Positions 57,459-63,982 of a stretch of 64,000 nt of DNA are shown piece by piece; within the stretch, counting starts at the first letter, position 1, and the number at the start of each line of letters is the position of its first letter. This DNA is from Prauserella marina. Its GTDB lineage: Bacteria; Actinomycetota; Actinomycetes; Mycobacteriales; Pseudonocardiaceae. The notes beneath the pieces are model-generated. The model saw only the letters and a program-made list of their open reading frames with translations. It was not told the origin of the DNA and searched no databases. The DNA lies in the NCBI RefSeq assembly GCF_002240355.1, contig NZ_CP016353.1, positions 1,538,501 to 1,602,500 on the forward strand, in the 5' to 3' direction. Made by a program: the position numbers and the translations under genes.

Positions 57459-58565
57459 GTGCCCGACCCCGAATCGCCGCTGACAGTCGGCGTGGTCAAG
57501 GAAACCAAACCGGGTGAGCGCAGAGTCGCGCTCGTGCCCACACTCGTCGGCCGCCTCGCCAGGCGCGGGCTGCGGGTGGTGATCGAGTCCGGAGCGGGCG
57601 AGGGAGCGCGACTCGCCGACGAGGTGTTCGAGGAAGCGGGAGCGGAGATCGGAGACGCGTGGGCCGCCGACATCGTGCTCACCGTGTCCCCGCCCTCCGT
57701 TGCCGACATCGGCAAGCTCGGTGAATCGGCCGTACTCGCCGGGTTCCTCGCCCCGCTGACCAACACCGAGGAACTGGCCGCCATGAAAAAGGCGGGGATC
57801 AGGGCTTTCGCCGTCGAGTCGATTCCCAGGATCTCCCGCGCACAGGCCATGGACGCCCTTTCCTCACAGGCAGGCGTCGCCGGATACCGCGCCGTGCTGC
57901 TGGCGGCGCAGCGCCTCCCGAAGTTCTTCCCCATGCTCACCACGGCGGCGGGCACGGTGCCGCCCGCGAAGGTGCTCGTGCTGGGAGCCGGAGTCGCCGG
58001 GTTGCAGGCGCTGGCGACGGCGAAACGGCTCGGCGCGCAGGCCACCGGTTACGACGTGCGGCCAGAAGTCGCCGAACAGGTTCGCTCCGTCGGCGCGAGC
58101 TGGCTCGATCTCGGCATCGAGGCGGTGGGGGAGGGCGGCTACGCCCGCGAACTGACCGAGGCCGAACGCGAGGAGCAGCAGCGGCGGCTGACCGAGGCCA
58201 CCACCGGATTCGACGTCGTCATCACCACCGCGCTCGTTCCGGGGCGTACCGCGCCGACCCTCGTCACGGCCGAGGCCGTCAGGGGAATGCGGGCGGGCAG
58301 CGTCATCGTCGACATGGCGGGAGAGACGGGAGGCAACTGCGAACTGACCGAACCCGGCAAGGAGATCGTCGCGCACGACGTCACGATCTGCTCACCGCTC
58401 AACCTTCCGGCCGAAATGCCGGTGCACGCGAGCGAACTGTACGGCCGGAACCTCACCGAATTGCTGGAGTTGCTGGTGAACGCCGAAGGCGAACTCGTGC
58501 TCGATTTCTCCGATCCGATCGTGTCCGGCGCGTGTGTCGCCGGCGCCGACGAGGAGGTGCGGTGA
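57459..58565 (+). CDS. pntAA: NAD(P) transhydrogenase subunit alpha part 1
   Basis: NAD(H)-binding dI component of the proton-translocating transhydrogenase, which uses the proton gradient to move hydride from NADH to NADP+. The 368-aa soluble protein has GVVKETKPGERRVALVP, VSPPS, SIPRISRAQAMDALSSQA (in parts) and the dinucleotide loop LVLGAGVAGLQALATAKRLG. It lacks the C-terminal membrane part, as in three-subunit enzymes. GTG start at 57459. It shares one base with pntAB. Candidate operators lie just upstream. Confidence 0.95.
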   Translation: MPDPESPLTVGVVKETKPGERRVALVPTLVGRLARRGLRVVIESGAGEGARLADEVFEEAGAEIGDAWAADIVLTVSPPSVADIGKLGESAVLAGFLAPLTNTEELAAMKKAGIRAFAVESIPRISRAQAMDALSSQAGVAGYRAVLLAAQRLPKFFPMLTTAAGTVPPAKVLVLGAGVAGLQALATAKRLGAQATGYDVRPEVAEQVRSVGASWLDLGIEAVGEGGYARELTEAEREEQQRRLTEATTGFDVVITTALVPGRTAPTLVTAEAVRGMRAGSVIVDMAGETGGNCELTEPGKEIVAHDVTICSPLNLPAEMPVHASELYGRNLTELLELLVNAEGELVLDFSDPIVSGACVAGADEEVR

Positions 58566-58873
58566 TGCTCGTCGAAAGTCTCGCGGTGCTCGTGCTCGCC
58601 GGTTTCGTGGGTTTCGCGGTGATCTCCAAGGTGCCCAACACCCTGCACACGCCGCTGATGTCGGGCACCAACGCCATTCACGGCATCGTGCTGCTCGGCG
58701 GGCTGATCGTGCTCGGGCACGGTGCCGACGGCGTGCTGAACAAGATCCTGCTGGTGATCGCGATCGCGTTCGGCACGATCAACGTCGTCGGCGGTTTCCT
58801 GGTGACCGACCGGATGCTGGGCATGTTCAAGGAGAAGCCCAAGCAGGACGCGGCCAAGGAGGACGGCAAGTGA
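58565..58873 (+). CDS. pntAB: NAD(P) transhydrogenase subunit alpha part 2
   Basis: 102-aa membrane component of the transhydrogenase with three hydrophobic segments (about residues 5-22, 38-55, 62-82) and the SKVPNTLHTPLMSGTNAIHG motif conserved in dII. The ATG overlaps the pntAA stop (TGATG) and its stop overlaps the pntB start (GTGA), so the three genes are tightly coupled. The longer frame upstream is a shadow of pntAA. Confidence 0.94.
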   Translation: MLVESLAVLVLAGFVGFAVISKVPNTLHTPLMSGTNAIHGIVLLGGLIVLGHGADGVLNKILLVIAIAFGTINVVGGFLVTDRMLGMFKEKPKQDAAKEDGK

Positions 58874-60258
58874 CGACCCTCATCGCCGTCCTCTACATCA
58901 TCTCCTTCTCCCTCTTCATCTACGGCCTGATGGGGCTGACCGGGCCACGCACGGCGGTGCGCGGCAACTGGATCGCCGCGACCGGGATGGGCCTCGCCGT
59001 CGTCGCCACCTTGCTGCAACCCGGCATGGGCAACTGGTGGTTGATCGCGCTGGGCGTCGTGCTCGGTACCGTCATCGGCGTTCCGGCGGCCCGCAAGGTC
59101 AAGATGACCGCGATGCCACAGATGGTGGCGTTGTTCAACGGCGTGGGCGGCGGCGCGGTCGCGCTCATCGCGTGGGTCGAATTCCGTACGACCGAAGGTT
59201 TTCAGCACGAACCGTTGTACGTCGCGATCGCCTCGCTGTTCGCGGCGATCATCGGCTCGGTGTCGTTCTGGGGTTCCAACGTCGCGTTCGGGAAACTCCA
59301 GGAACTGCTCCCCGGCAAGCCGATCACCATCGGCAAGCTCCAGCAGCCGCTGAACGCCGTGGTGCTACTCGCCGCGGTGGTCTGCGCGATCGTGATCGCG
59401 GCCGGAGGATCGTCGGAGTGGCTGATCATCGGCGTTCTCGTGGCCGCCGCGCTGATCGGTGTCATGGTGGTGCTTCCGATCGGCGGCGCCGACATGCCCG
59501 TTGTGATCTCGTTGCTCAATGCGCTCACCGGGCTTTCGGCGGCGGCGATGGGCCTCGCGCTGGACAACACGGCGCTCATCGTCGCGGGCATGATCGTCGG
59601 TGCGTCCGGTTCGATCCTGACCAACCTGATGGCCAAGGCGATGAACCGGTCGATTCCGGCGATCGTCGCGGGAGGATTCGGTGGCGGTTCGGCCGCGGCG
59701 GTGGCGAGCGGCGGTGGCGAGGACCGTCCCGTTCGCAGCACGAGCGCGGGCGATGCCGCCATCCAGATGGCCTACGCGAGCAGGGTGATGGTGGTTCCCG
59801 GCTACGGCATGGCCGTCGCGCAGGCGCAGCACGCGGTGCGGGAGATGGCGGACCTGCTTGAGAGCAAGGGAATCGAGGTGCTCTACGCCATCCATCCCGT
59901 CGCGGGCCGGATGCCGGGCCACATGAACGTGCTGCTGGCCGAGGCCGACGTCGCCTACGAATCGCTCAAGGAGATGGACGAAAGCAACTCGCAGTTCCCG
60001 CAAACCGATGTCGCGCTGGTGATCGGAGCCAACGACGTCACCAACCCCGCCGCGCAGTCCGATCCGAACTCGCCGATTTACGGCATGCCGATCCTGCACG
60101 TCAACGCCAGCCGTTCGGTGATCGTGCTGAAACGCTCGATGAGTTCGGGCTTCGCCGGTATCGACAACGCCCTGTTCTACGACCCGAAGACCGCGATGCT
60201 GTTCGGGGACGCCAAGTCTTCGGTCGCCGGGATCGTGGAGGAGCTGAAAGCGCTGTAG
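58870..60258 (+). CDS. pntB: NAD(P) transhydrogenase subunit beta
   Basis: 462-aa subunit that combines the remaining proton-channel helices (nine or so segments up to about residue 270) with the C-terminal NADP(H)-binding dIII domain: VPGYGMAVAQAQHAVREM, HPVAGRMPGHMNVLLAEA, GANDVTNPAAQ and LKRSMSSGFAGIDN. GTG start within the pntAB stop. With PntAA and PntAB it gives a complete Rhodospirillum-type enzyme supplying NADPH for biosynthesis and mycothiol recycling. Confidence 0.95.
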   Translation: MTTLIAVLYIISFSLFIYGLMGLTGPRTAVRGNWIAATGMGLAVVATLLQPGMGNWWLIALGVVLGTVIGVPAARKVKMTAMPQMVALFNGVGGGAVALIAWVEFRTTEGFQHEPLYVAIASLFAAIIGSVSFWGSNVAFGKLQELLPGKPITIGKLQQPLNAVVLLAAVVCAIVIAAGGSSEWLIIGVLVAAALIGVMVVLPIGGADMPVVISLLNALTGLSAAAMGLALDNTALIVAGMIVGASGSILTNLMAKAMNRSIPAIVAGGFGGGSAAAVASGGGEDRPVRSTSAGDAAIQMAYASRVMVVPGYGMAVAQAQHAVREMADLLESKGIEVLYAIHPVAGRMPGHMNVLLAEADVAYESLKEMDESNSQFPQTDVALVIGANDVTNPAAQSDPNSPIYGMPILHVNASRSVIVLKRSMSSGFAGIDNALFYDPKTAMLFGDAKSSVAGIVEELKAL

Positions 60259-60268
60259 CGGCAGGGGC

Positions 60269-61063
60269 TCAGTTGTTGCCCTTGGCCGAGGAGAAGGTCA
60301 CCTGCGGAACGTTGGCCTTGCTCGCCGGTTTGCGCTGGGATTGCTGAGCCTGCGGTGCCGACGAGGTCTGCGATGCCTGCGGTGCGGCCTTCTTCACGGG
60401 CTTGGTTGTGGCGGCCTTCGCGGGCTTGGCCGCGGGCTTGGCGTTCTTGCTCGGCTTCGTGGTACCAGCCGTCTTGCTCTTGCCCGCGACGGTGGCGCGC
60501 GTGGTCGGCTTGGCCGTCCGCGACGTGGTGCGGGAAGCCGCCTTCTTGGCCGCGTCCTTCGTGGCCGCCGACGCCGTCTTCGTGGATTTCGCCGAGGCGG
60601 GCGTCTTGGCGGTCGCGGCGGATTTGGTGGACCTGGTGGTCTTCGCGGTCTTGGGGGCGCTCTTCGCCGCTGCCGGTTTGGCCTTCTTCGCCGACGCCGC
60701 CGGTTTCCCCGCCGCTGTCTTGGCGGCTGCCGCTTTCTTCGCGGGCGCCTTGCCCGTTGTCTTCGTTGCCGCCGCGCCCGTCTTCTTCGCCTTTGTGGCG
60801 GTGCCGCTCGCCGAGGAGGCGCGGCCCGCGATCTTCCGGGTACCACGGCGCTTGCGCTTGCCGATGATGCGCGGCGGACGCTTGCGCCCTCCGGTGCGGC
60901 GACCGCCCGCGACGTACCGGTCGAGAAGGTCGCGCAGAGTGTCCGCGTTGTCGCCGGAGAGGTCGATGTCGTACTCGACGCCATCGAGAGCGAACCGCAC
61001 CGTTTCCTCGGCGGGCTCGCCGTTGATGTCGTCGAGCAACTCGACCGCAGTACTCCTGGCCAT
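60269..61063 (-). CDS. Lsr2 N-terminal domain fused to a Lys/Ala-rich histone-like tail
   Basis: 264 aa. Residues 1-60 match the Lsr2 dimerisation domain (VELLDDINGEPAEETVRFAL, then DGVEYDIDLSGDNADTLRDL, YVAGGRRTGG). A basic patch follows (GGRKRPPRIIGKRKRRGTRK), then ~165 residues of Ala/Lys/Thr/Ser with repeated AKK, PAKK, KTA and TKS units, and a Gln/Ser-rich end. The normal Lsr2 C-terminal DNA-binding domain with its RGR AT-hook is absent. It therefore looks like a nucleoid protein in which an H1/HupB-like tail replaces sequence-selective binding. ATG at 61063 with GGGGAGG upstream. It converges on pntB. Confidence 0.85.
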   Translation of the reverse strand: MARSTAVELLDDINGEPAEETVRFALDGVEYDIDLSGDNADTLRDLLDRYVAGGRRTGGRKRPPRIIGKRKRRGTRKIAGRASSASGTATKAKKTGAAATKTTGKAPAKKAAAAKTAAGKPAASAKKAKPAAAKSAPKTAKTTRSTKSAATAKTPASAKSTKTASAATKDAAKKAASRTTSRTAKPTTRATVAGKSKTAGTTKPSKNAKPAAKPAKAATTKPVKKAAPQASQTSSAPQAQQSQRKPASKANVPQVTFSSAKGNN

Positions 61064-61173
61064 GAATGACCTCCCCGTTCTTGCAAGTGTTCGCGGCAAG
61101 GATAGCGCCCGAGCCGTTTTCCTTGCGGGGCGCCCAGGTTGCGCGCGAAGCTTGAGTGGTGTGCGCTCAGAAG

Positions 61174-62565
61174 ATGGCGGAGCAGACTTTCGATGTTGTG
61201 GTCATCGGTGCGGGCCCGGTGGGGGAGAACGCGGCCTCGCGGGCGGTCGAAGGCGGGTTGACGGCCGCGCTCGTGGAGCACGAGCGATTCGGCGGTGAGT
61301 GTTCCTACTGGGCCTGTATCCCGAGCAAAGCCCTGCTGCGGCCGGGAAATCTGCTCGCGGCCGTTCGCAGGATGCCCGGGATCGAGGCGGCGGAGCGGCT
61401 CGACCCGCTGGCGGTGTTCGCTCGTCGTGACGCGTTCACGTCGAACGGGGACGACACCGGTCAGGTCGACTGGGCGAAGAGCGCGAAAATCGAACCGGTT
61501 CGCGGGCACGCGAGGATCACGGGTGAGCGCGAGGTCACACTGGACGATGGCACGGTACTGCTCGCCCGGCGCGCGGTCGTGGTGTGCACGGGAAGCGTGC
61601 CGGTGACGCCGCCGATCGACGGGATCGGCGAGATACCCGTGTGGACGTCGCGCGACGCGACGTCGGCGTCGGAGGTGCCCGCGCGGCTCGCCGTCATCGG
61701 TGGTGGTGTCGTCGGCGTCGAGATGTCACAGGCGTGGGCGCGGCTGGGGTCGAGTGTGGACCTCATCGCGACGGGGGAGCGGTTGCTGCCCAGGATGCCC
61801 GCGTTCGCCGGTGACGCGGTCGCCGAGGGGCTGAGGGCCGACGGGGTACGGGTTCACCTGAGGGCACGGGCCGACCGGGTGTCTACTGTGGATGGGTCGA
61901 CGCGCGTCGAGCTGGCCGACGGCGGCTATGTGGACGCGGACAAGGTGCTGCTCGCGACGGGAAGGAAACCGGCGACGGCCGACCTCGGCGTCGATGTGGT
62001 GGGGCTCACGCCAGGATCGCCGCTGACCGTCGACGACACCGGGCTGGTGTCCGGAGTGGACGGTGAATGGCTTTACGCGGCGGGCGACGTCACCGGGAGG
62101 GCGCCGCTGACCCATCAGGGCAAGTACGCCGCCCGTGCCGTCGGTGACGTGATCTCGGCCAAGGCGCGAGGCGAAACGGTCGATGCCGTGCCGTGGAGCC
62201 GGTTCACGGCAACCGCCGATCATCACGCCGTCCCGCAGGTGATCTTCACCGATCCCGAGGTGGCTTCCGTCGGGCTGGCCGACGCCGAGAACGACCGGCA
62301 GCGGGTGGTCGATCTGGACATCGCGGTCGCCGGTTCGGCGCTGACCGCCGACGGCTACACCGGCAAGGCACGCATCGTCGTCGACACGGAGCGGGAAGTC
62401 CTGCTCGGCGTCACCTTCGTCGGCCAGGACGTCGGCGAGATGCTGCACGCCGCGACCATCGCGGTCGTCGGTGAGGTGCCGTTGCGCAGGCTGTGGCACG
62501 CGGTGCCCGCCTTCCCCACGATCAGTGAGGTGTGGTTGCGGTTGCTGGAGACCTACGGTCTCTGA
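61174..62565 (+). CDS. NAD(P)/FAD pyridine nucleotide-disulfide oxidoreductase family protein
   Basis: 463-aa flavoprotein related to dihydrolipoyl dehydrogenase and mercuric reductase. It has the FAD loop VVVIGAGPVGENAASRA, redox-type cysteines C43 and C48 in GGECSYWACIPSKALL, NAD loop VIGGGVVGVEMSQAWARLG and YAAGDVTG. At the C-terminus the usual AHPTxSE catalytic histidine is replaced by phenylalanine (AFPTISE, F447), so ordinary disulfide reduction is doubtful; quinone or small-molecule reduction is an option. ATG at 61174. It is divergent from the Lsr2-like gene and converges on the next gene 2 bp away. Confidence 0.87.
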   Translation: MAEQTFDVVVIGAGPVGENAASRAVEGGLTAALVEHERFGGECSYWACIPSKALLRPGNLLAAVRRMPGIEAAERLDPLAVFARRDAFTSNGDDTGQVDWAKSAKIEPVRGHARITGEREVTLDDGTVLLARRAVVVCTGSVPVTPPIDGIGEIPVWTSRDATSASEVPARLAVIGGGVVGVEMSQAWARLGSSVDLIATGERLLPRMPAFAGDAVAEGLRADGVRVHLRARADRVSTVDGSTRVELADGGYVDADKVLLATGRKPATADLGVDVVGLTPGSPLTVDDTGLVSGVDGEWLYAAGDVTGRAPLTHQGKYAARAVGDVISAKARGETVDAVPWSRFTATADHHAVPQVIFTDPEVASVGLADAENDRQRVVDLDIAVAGSALTADGYTGKARIVVDTEREVLLGVTFVGQDVGEMLHAATIAVVGEVPLRRLWHAVPAFPTISEVWLRLLETYGL

Positions 62566-62566
62566 G

Positions 62567-63982
62567 CTACTGCGACAGCGGGATTTCCAGCGCGGCCGTC
62601 GCGGCCGCCGTCAACGCCGGATCGCCGGGTTCGGATTCGCCTTCGAGCCAGCCGGCCAGCACGAGCCGTACCGTGCTGCCTCCTGCCGAACCGACGTAGG
62701 CGGCCCCGGCGAAATCGGGCGGCCCTGTTTCGCTGTCCGGCCACAGCCCCTTGTCGGTGGCGACGTCGTCGACGGTGCCGCTGCCAGGGGTGTCGGCGAG
62801 TTCGAGAAACCGGGCAGCCTGCTCGCTGTCGGCGAAGGAGAGCGCGGCGACCGAAACCGCGACCTCACGTCCCTCGACAGTGGTTTCGAAGCTGCCCCTG
62901 CGGAGTCCGGTGCAGGTCTGCTCGGCCAGTGACACCTGGAGGTCGCCTCCGGCGTGTGCGGCGCAGTCGGTACCGGCTTCCGTCGCGTATTCGGTGAAGG
63001 AGATGCCGCCGGCGGCGACCGTGGGGGCGACGGGCTGGCGCAGCGCGATCGGGCGTTCCCCTTCGTCGTCACCGCTCGCCGCGATGGTGACGGTGGCCGC
63101 GGCGACGGCGACCAGCAGCGCACCGGCTGCCCATGGATGCCAGCGGGCGCTCAGCGTCACGGCGCGCCGTGACCGGCCCGGGAATGGGGGCGGTTGGGGC
63201 CGGGGTACCGGAGAGGGCAGTGGGGACACCAGCGGAGCGGGCCGCGCGGGTTGCGTGGTCACCGCGGGCGCCACCGGTACCGCCGGTGCTGTCGTGGCGC
63301 TCGGTTCGGTGGAAGGGGGAGGCGAGGGACGGGCCGGGTAGTCGATCGGCACGGTCTCTGCTGGCTCGGCGAGCGGGTGCTCTTCGGTGCCGAAACCCTC
63401 GGCTGCCAGCGCTGTGTCGTCGATGTCGCCGGAGTCACCGATGCCTTCGGTGTCGCCGGAGACCGTGGCGGAGGGGGCGAACGCCCTGATCAGGCTCCTT
63501 GCCTGGGCGGCGGTCAGCGGTTCTTCGCCCGACGAGAGTGAAACGGCGGCCGTCAGCAGGCTCGTCGCCGTCGGGTACACCACCCTGACCTCGCCGGTCA
63601 GGTCGGCCGCCGGTTGTTCGACTGCTTCAACGAAGGGGCCGACCGCGATGATCGTGCCGACGGGGCAGGCCGGTGCCAGTTCCCTGACCCGCTCGCCGAG
63701 CGTGTTTGCCATGGCGAGTACGTCGACCGCGGGATGGATGGCCTCGCCCCTGACGAGTGGCCAGCCGTCGGCTTTCCACTGTCCGGCCAGTGGGGCTTCC
63801 AGCCGCATGGCCGGGTCGGGAAGGTCGACGCCGCCGATGACGACGACCCCGCGCGGCATGATCATGATCGCGTCGACGGGACCGGAAACGCCGGGTGGTT
63901 CGGCTCCGACGAGCGCGATCCCGCCGATGATGTTGGGTCCTCGGCCGAGTGAGGCGAGCGCGGCACGTACGTCGTCGGACAC
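62567..63982 (-). CDS. Large membrane-anchored protein of unknown function, possibly 5'-truncated by the window edge
   Basis: 471 aa from a GTG at 63982; the frame stays open to the window end, so the true start may lie beyond it. The N-terminal ~150 residues form a folded domain (GRGPNIIGGIALVGAEPPGV, MIMPRGVVVIGGVD, LAGQWKADGWPLV), then a Pro/Thr/Ala-rich linker (about 215-290), one membrane segment (WHPWAAGALLVAVAAATVTI) and an extracytoplasmic ~150-residue domain with two cysteines (TDCAAH, EQTCTG) likely to pair. I do not recognise the family. A sensor or secretion-accessory role is conceivable from the layout only. Confidence 0.75.
   Translation of the reverse strand: MSDDVRAALASLGRGPNIIGGIALVGAEPPGVSGPVDAIMIMPRGVVVIGGVDLPDPAMRLEAPLAGQWKADGWPLVRGEAIHPAVDVLAMANTLGERVRELAPACPVGTIIAVGPFVEAVEQPAADLTGEVRVVYPTATSLLTAAVSLSSGEEPLTAAQARSLIRAFAPSATVSGDTEGIGDSGDIDDTALAAEGFGTEEHPLAEPAETVPIDYPARPSPPPSTEPSATTAPAVPVAPAVTTQPARPAPLVSPLPSPVPRPQPPPFPGRSRRAVTLSARWHPWAAGALLVAVAAATVTIAASGDDEGERPIALRQPVAPTVAAGGISFTEYATEAGTDCAAHAGGDLQVSLAEQTCTGLRRGSFETTVEGREVAVSVAALSFADSEQAARFLELADTPGSGTVDDVATDKGLWPDSETGPPDFAGAAYVGSAGGSTVRLVLAGWLEGESEPGDPALTAAATAALEIPLSQ

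Follow-up and report, generated by a model that had tools for sequence, protein, structure and literature searches.

A gene in a 64,000-nucleotide stretch of the Prauserella marina genome (the window) encodes a 264-residue protein that joins the dimerization domain of the nucleoid protein Lsr2 to a long basic disordered tail and lacks the Lsr2 DNA-binding domain (Table 1). What is new here concerns the tails of 42 proteins of this type (41 orthologs and the P. marina protein): they comprise 50–334 residues and cannot be aligned, but the motif P-x-V-x-F-S adjoins the C-terminus in every one of the 42. The protein is probably a clade-specific nucleoid protein that would dimerize like Lsr2, may co-assemble with Lsr2, would bind DNA by charge, and carries a putative docking peptide at its end. 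Full-text searches of open-licence papers turned up no account of the architecture, and the protein is not covered by any NCBIfam model; it therefore appears to be previously undescribed.

Table 1. Features of the lsr2-like locus (positions within the window).
Feature	Position	Strand	Evidence
Protein of 264 aa, Lsr2 domain plus histone-like tail	60269..61063	−	ORF, translation; 41 orthologs of same architecture
Lsr2 dimerization domain, residues 1–58	60890..61063	−	PF11774; PDB 4e1p by sequence; AF2 hairpin and helix
A/K/T-rich basic disordered tail, residues 59–250	60314..60889	−	Composition, charge; AF2 pLDDT about 50
Conserved C-terminal peptide NVPQVTFSSA, residues 251–260 (P-x-V-x-F-S core)	60284..60313	−	Ortholog conservation, codons, pLDDT
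Intergenic region of divergent genes	61064..61173	.	Recurrent upstream sequence in orthologs, read by eye
Pyridine nucleotide-disulphide oxidoreductase, divergent	61174..62565	+	Pfam/NCBIfam; syntenic at 39/41 loci
pntAA-pntAB-pntB, proton-translocating NAD(P) transhydrogenase, convergent	57459..60258	+	NCBIfam; pntB at 37/41 loci

Domain organization

The open reading frame begins with ATG. Pfam assigns the N-terminal domain to PF11774 (E = 7e-24; 83.6 bits against a cut-off of 29.6), which makes the protein a member of the Lsr2 family, and the only PDB matches found by phmmer are 4e1p and 4e1r, the dimerization domain of M. tuberculosis Lsr2 (best E = 2e-12). In the AF2 model this domain contains a hairpin (residues 21–34) and a helix (residues 38–57). 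Over its full length the model has low confidence (mean pLDDT 55, pTM 0.23), and a Foldseek search with it recovered 4e1p at E = 0.09 only.

The Lsr2 domain is followed by 206 basic, disordered residues. In the Pfam search PF23359, the Lsr2 DNA-binding domain, had no match in the protein even at E ≤ 10; the same library detects it in one canonical Lsr2 of the host genome (E = 5e-20). The tripeptide RGR occurs nowhere in the protein, which is thus not a canonical xenogeneic silencer, the type with a C-terminal, RGR-containing PF23359 domain. By Pfam the pairing domain is there and the DNA-binding domain is missing, a layout that would be compatible with an H-NST-like antagonist. Of the two features of HupB/MDP1-type proteins, the HU fold (PF00216) was not found in the Pfam scan and the A/K-rich basic disordered tail is present (composition, AF2 disorder). 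An NCBIfam match to PRK07003 (E = 0.32) was dismissed as low-complexity noise.

The host genome (6.99 Mb, two contigs) holds four further Lsr2-domain genes. All four are canonical and encode a C-terminus with RGR. One of these genes lies on the 134-kb contig; the end of its product is somewhat diverged, and this copy is possibly plasmid-borne. The 264-residue protein is identical to the host's canonical Lsr2s at 33–37 of the first 60 positions. HupB is the sole HU protein encoded; it has an A/K/T-rich tail and ends in ARKKK. The original prediction of a hybrid, with Lsr2-like N-terminal residues and a HupB-like tail in place of the RGR-bearing Lsr2 C-terminal domain, agrees with these results, among them the canonical Lsr2 genes elsewhere in the genome. 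The functions proposed with it, namely Lsr2-like oligomerization, non-specific coating of DNA or RNA and heterodimers with canonical Lsr2, would be in keeping with published precedents. In another genome of the same bacterial family (G159), an Lsr2-domain query gave ten matches, several within about 8 kb.

The basic tail

From residue 71 onward (194 residues) the tail has a net charge of +46 and consists to 91% of K, R, A, T, P, S and G, and in the AF2 model it is without secondary structure. The N-terminal domain carries a charge of −10 against +53 for residues 54–250, in agreement with the asymmetric charge layout known for H-NS and Lsr2 (PMC6936261). The composition (A 0.30, K 0.21, T 0.16) is close to that of the host's HupB tail (A 0.30, K 0.18, T 0.30). 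Richness in Lys, Ala and Thr had been predicted correctly; the PAKK/AKK repeats predicted with it are scarce (AKK four times, PAK twice), so that the tail is better named A/K/T-rich. Across the 42 proteins its net charge ranges from +11 to +57 and is positive in every one.

Such basic tails bind polyanions promiscuously; the ligand here could be RNA, ribosomes or polyphosphate rather than DNA. We regard a non-nucleoid protein of this kind as improbable, because the Lsr2 domain is familiar from proteins that bridge DNA and because actinobacterial tailed HU proteins act on DNA (PMC5974015).

The conserved C-terminal peptide

The last ~12 residues of the tail, far from being low-complexity, form a conserved peptide that the original prediction overlooked. 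P, V, F and S of the core are invariant in 42/42 proteins, mostly with R-K before the core and A-A plus a few residues after it; the Amycolatopsis arida ortholog has a longer extension beyond it. The P, V and S codons differ between species, and this synonymous variation indicates that selection acts on the peptide. The invariance implies that the protein does something specific besides coating nucleic acid non-specifically, and on sequence grounds the motif is most likely a short site at which either a protein partner or the Lsr2 domain itself docks. The pLDDT climbs locally to 70 at residues 251–260 against about 50 around them, a rise that may reflect conservation alone; intramolecular docking of the peptide was considered, and the AF2 model has no strand at these residues. 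A degenerate GC-rich DNA pattern for the peptide occurs once in the host genome, within the lsr2-like gene; this pattern spans not all codons, so further carriers of the motif in that genome are possible. The beta-clamp binding motif, QL[SD]LF, was rejected as the identity of the C-terminus because its spacing is missing.

Orthologs and genomic context

When 84,980 species genomes were scanned, 42 loci emerged, of which 41 (L037–L077, in Amycolatopsis, Prauserella and Qaidamihabitans; A. arida is L076) share the architecture and the remaining one, in Sinomonas (L078), encodes a canonical Lsr2. The same protein type is present in two more genera of the bacterial family (L013, L021). A class-wide profile search of 297 genomes found a full-length match in the host genome only; the other matches lie mainly in the N-domain, and none exceeds 110 bits. 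Because the genomes sampled came from across the class, this result speaks only for genera outside the clade. Phage Lsr2-like proteins were considered as a source and rejected: among the matches listed they cover approximately residues 1–51 only, none spanning 80% of the query. The protein appears, from sequence, to be Lsr2-derived and vertically inherited in the Amycolatopsis/Prauserella clade.

All 41 loci retain the divergent oxidoreductase gene (39) and/or pntB (37). In other genera the oxidoreductase gene is present without an lsr2-like gene, and in one genome (L125) pntB and the oxidoreductase gene lie about 100 bp apart with no gene between them. By eye, the divergent intergenic region contains a -10-like element (TATCCT/TATTCT) and, just upstream of the lsr2-like gene, a Shine-Dalgarno-like GGGAGG; a CGCAACC-like element also recurs there across orthologs. 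The neighbor at 62567–63982 (−), kept at most ortholog loci, encodes 471 residues with one likely membrane segment and a P-rich middle and has no match in Pfam or NCBIfam.

The shared architecture and locus show that the gene is not the product of a frameshift, the one circumstance in which the original prediction allowed that a normal Lsr2 C-terminus might be hidden. The C-terminal motif is in frame throughout with synonymous variation, and GC3 of the tail-coding part is high (0.88). We found nothing in favor of an assembly frameshift or a decayed lsr2 pseudogene, and its probability is negligible.

The ortholog N-domains form one clade (support 100/99) set apart from canonical Lsr2 in an alignment of only 70 columns; the branch leading to the clade measures 0.72 changes per column. 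This separation, the HupB-like tail, and the location of the M. smegmatis paralogue MSMEG_1060 over the nucleoid, unlike Lsr2 (PMC8125055), would fit a homodimer that compacts DNA in the manner of H1 or HU, without involvement of Lsr2, and for which the Lsr2 domain is only a dimerizer. Canonical Lsr2 nevertheless still shares over half of the N-domain positions, and a specific partner is suggested by the conserved C-terminal peptide, so that Lsr2-independent compaction is possible but on the unlikely side.

Another Lsr2-domain family that lacks the DNA-binding domain

A second type of protein (29 proteins, L079–L106 and L110; for example L079:1501–1983, + strand) is encoded in other genera of this bacterial family. 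Here the Lsr2 N-domain precedes a helical tail that is acidic or charged (net charge −12 to +4), and the Lsr2 DNA-binding domain is likewise missing. These proteins form a separate clade (support 100/98), and at the loci read a canonical lsr2 gene lies on the opposite strand, divergent from the second-family gene. Their C-terminus follows V-S-[LM]-P-x-F-S-[SA]-A (e.g. VSLPQFSSA; L079 reads FLSA). Both clades end in a short conserved peptide centered on P, hydrophobic residues and F-S-[AS]; the two peptides are alike, although their registers do not match exactly. The second family is a candidate Lsr2 modulator, and one may guess at a common partner of the two C-termini. A broader proposal, that the end peptides of these two DNA-binding-domain-less clades dock onto a common nucleoid partner or onto the Lsr2 domain itself and so form an undescribed regulatory layer over Lsr2, is speculative and rather doubtful.

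Proposed function

The reading as a clade-specific nucleoid protein draws on the Lsr2 domain without PF23359, its identity to the host's canonical Lsr2s, the presence of these and of HupB, the charge asymmetry, the HupB-like tail composition, the invariant motif and published precedents. MSMEG_1060, an Lsr2 paralogue without Q/RGR and with a short basic tail that exists alongside canonical Lsr2, bound the two DNA fragments with which it was tested, of 50% and 70% GC, and is spread over the entire nucleoid (PMC8125055). According to PMC6936261, citing Datta 2019, the (P)AKKA tail of HU is a binding partner of the N-domain of M. tuberculosis Lsr2, and the two together assemble into thick linear filaments rather than bridges; the lsr2-like protein therefore joins in one chain two modules that interact in trans. 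Nucleoid compaction by the MDP1 tail is IDR-dependent (PMC5974015).

By analogy, the acidic N-terminal domain would dimerize and may co-assemble with the cell's four canonical Lsr2 proteins. The basic tail stands in for the AT-hook-like DNA-binding domain; much as the mycobacterial HupB/MDP1 tail does, it would hold DNA through electrostatic contacts that depend little on sequence. P-x-V-x-F-S would most likely dock a protein partner or the Lsr2 domain itself. Mixed assemblies could alter Lsr2-DNA complexes, for instance toward linear filaments or wider nucleoid coverage; the protein would not itself silence AT-rich genes. The weak AF2 model, the poor Foldseek match and the wide range of tail length and charge count against this explanation.

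From sequence the effect could have either sign, co-silencing or antagonism. H-NST antagonizes H-NS, and the CGP3 prophage is derepressed when CgpS truncated to its N-terminal part is overexpressed (PMC7074111); with a conserved pairing domain and no DNA-binding domain, the protein could in the same manner be a dominant-negative anti-silencer that pairs with canonical Lsr2 and removes or weakens its AT-specific binding. A pure antagonist would not need a basic tail, yet positive charge is retained in all orthologs, and the separate N-domain clade may reflect self-pairing; we consider this alternative unlikely.

Lsr2 in actinobacteria silences foreign genes and antibiotic-cluster genes, and Amycolatopsis is a producer of rifamycin and vancomycin-type drugs. 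The protein, which dozens of species of Amycolatopsis and Prauserella have in common, may alter gene silencing by Lsr2. If it does pair as Lsr2 does and bind DNA by charge, it would offer a handle on silencing in drug-producing Amycolatopsis and a natural one-chain test of cooperation between an HU tail and an Lsr2 domain; its terminal peptide is a directly testable candidate docking site.

Comparison with known systems

M. tuberculosis Lsr2 and Streptomyces Lsr2/LsrL share with the protein an acidic N-terminal dimerization domain followed by a basic region; the protein differs from them in lacking the PF23359/RGR domain, in its far longer tail and in its conserved P-x-V-x-F-S C-terminus. MSMEG_1060 likewise lacks Q/RGR, has a basic C-terminal tail and coexists with canonical Lsr2; by its published description it has a 20-residue extra tail and a diverged C-terminal domain, in place of which the protein here has a tail of ~200 residues alone. 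HupB/MDP1 is alike in carrying an A/K-rich disordered basic tail on a small dimerizing nucleoid domain, but that domain has the HU fold, and the host's HupB lacks the terminal peptide. H-NST and truncated CgpS are silencer pairing domains without a DNA-binding domain, the former encoded on a genomic island and the latter engineered (PMC7074111); unlike the protein described here, both lack a long basic tail.
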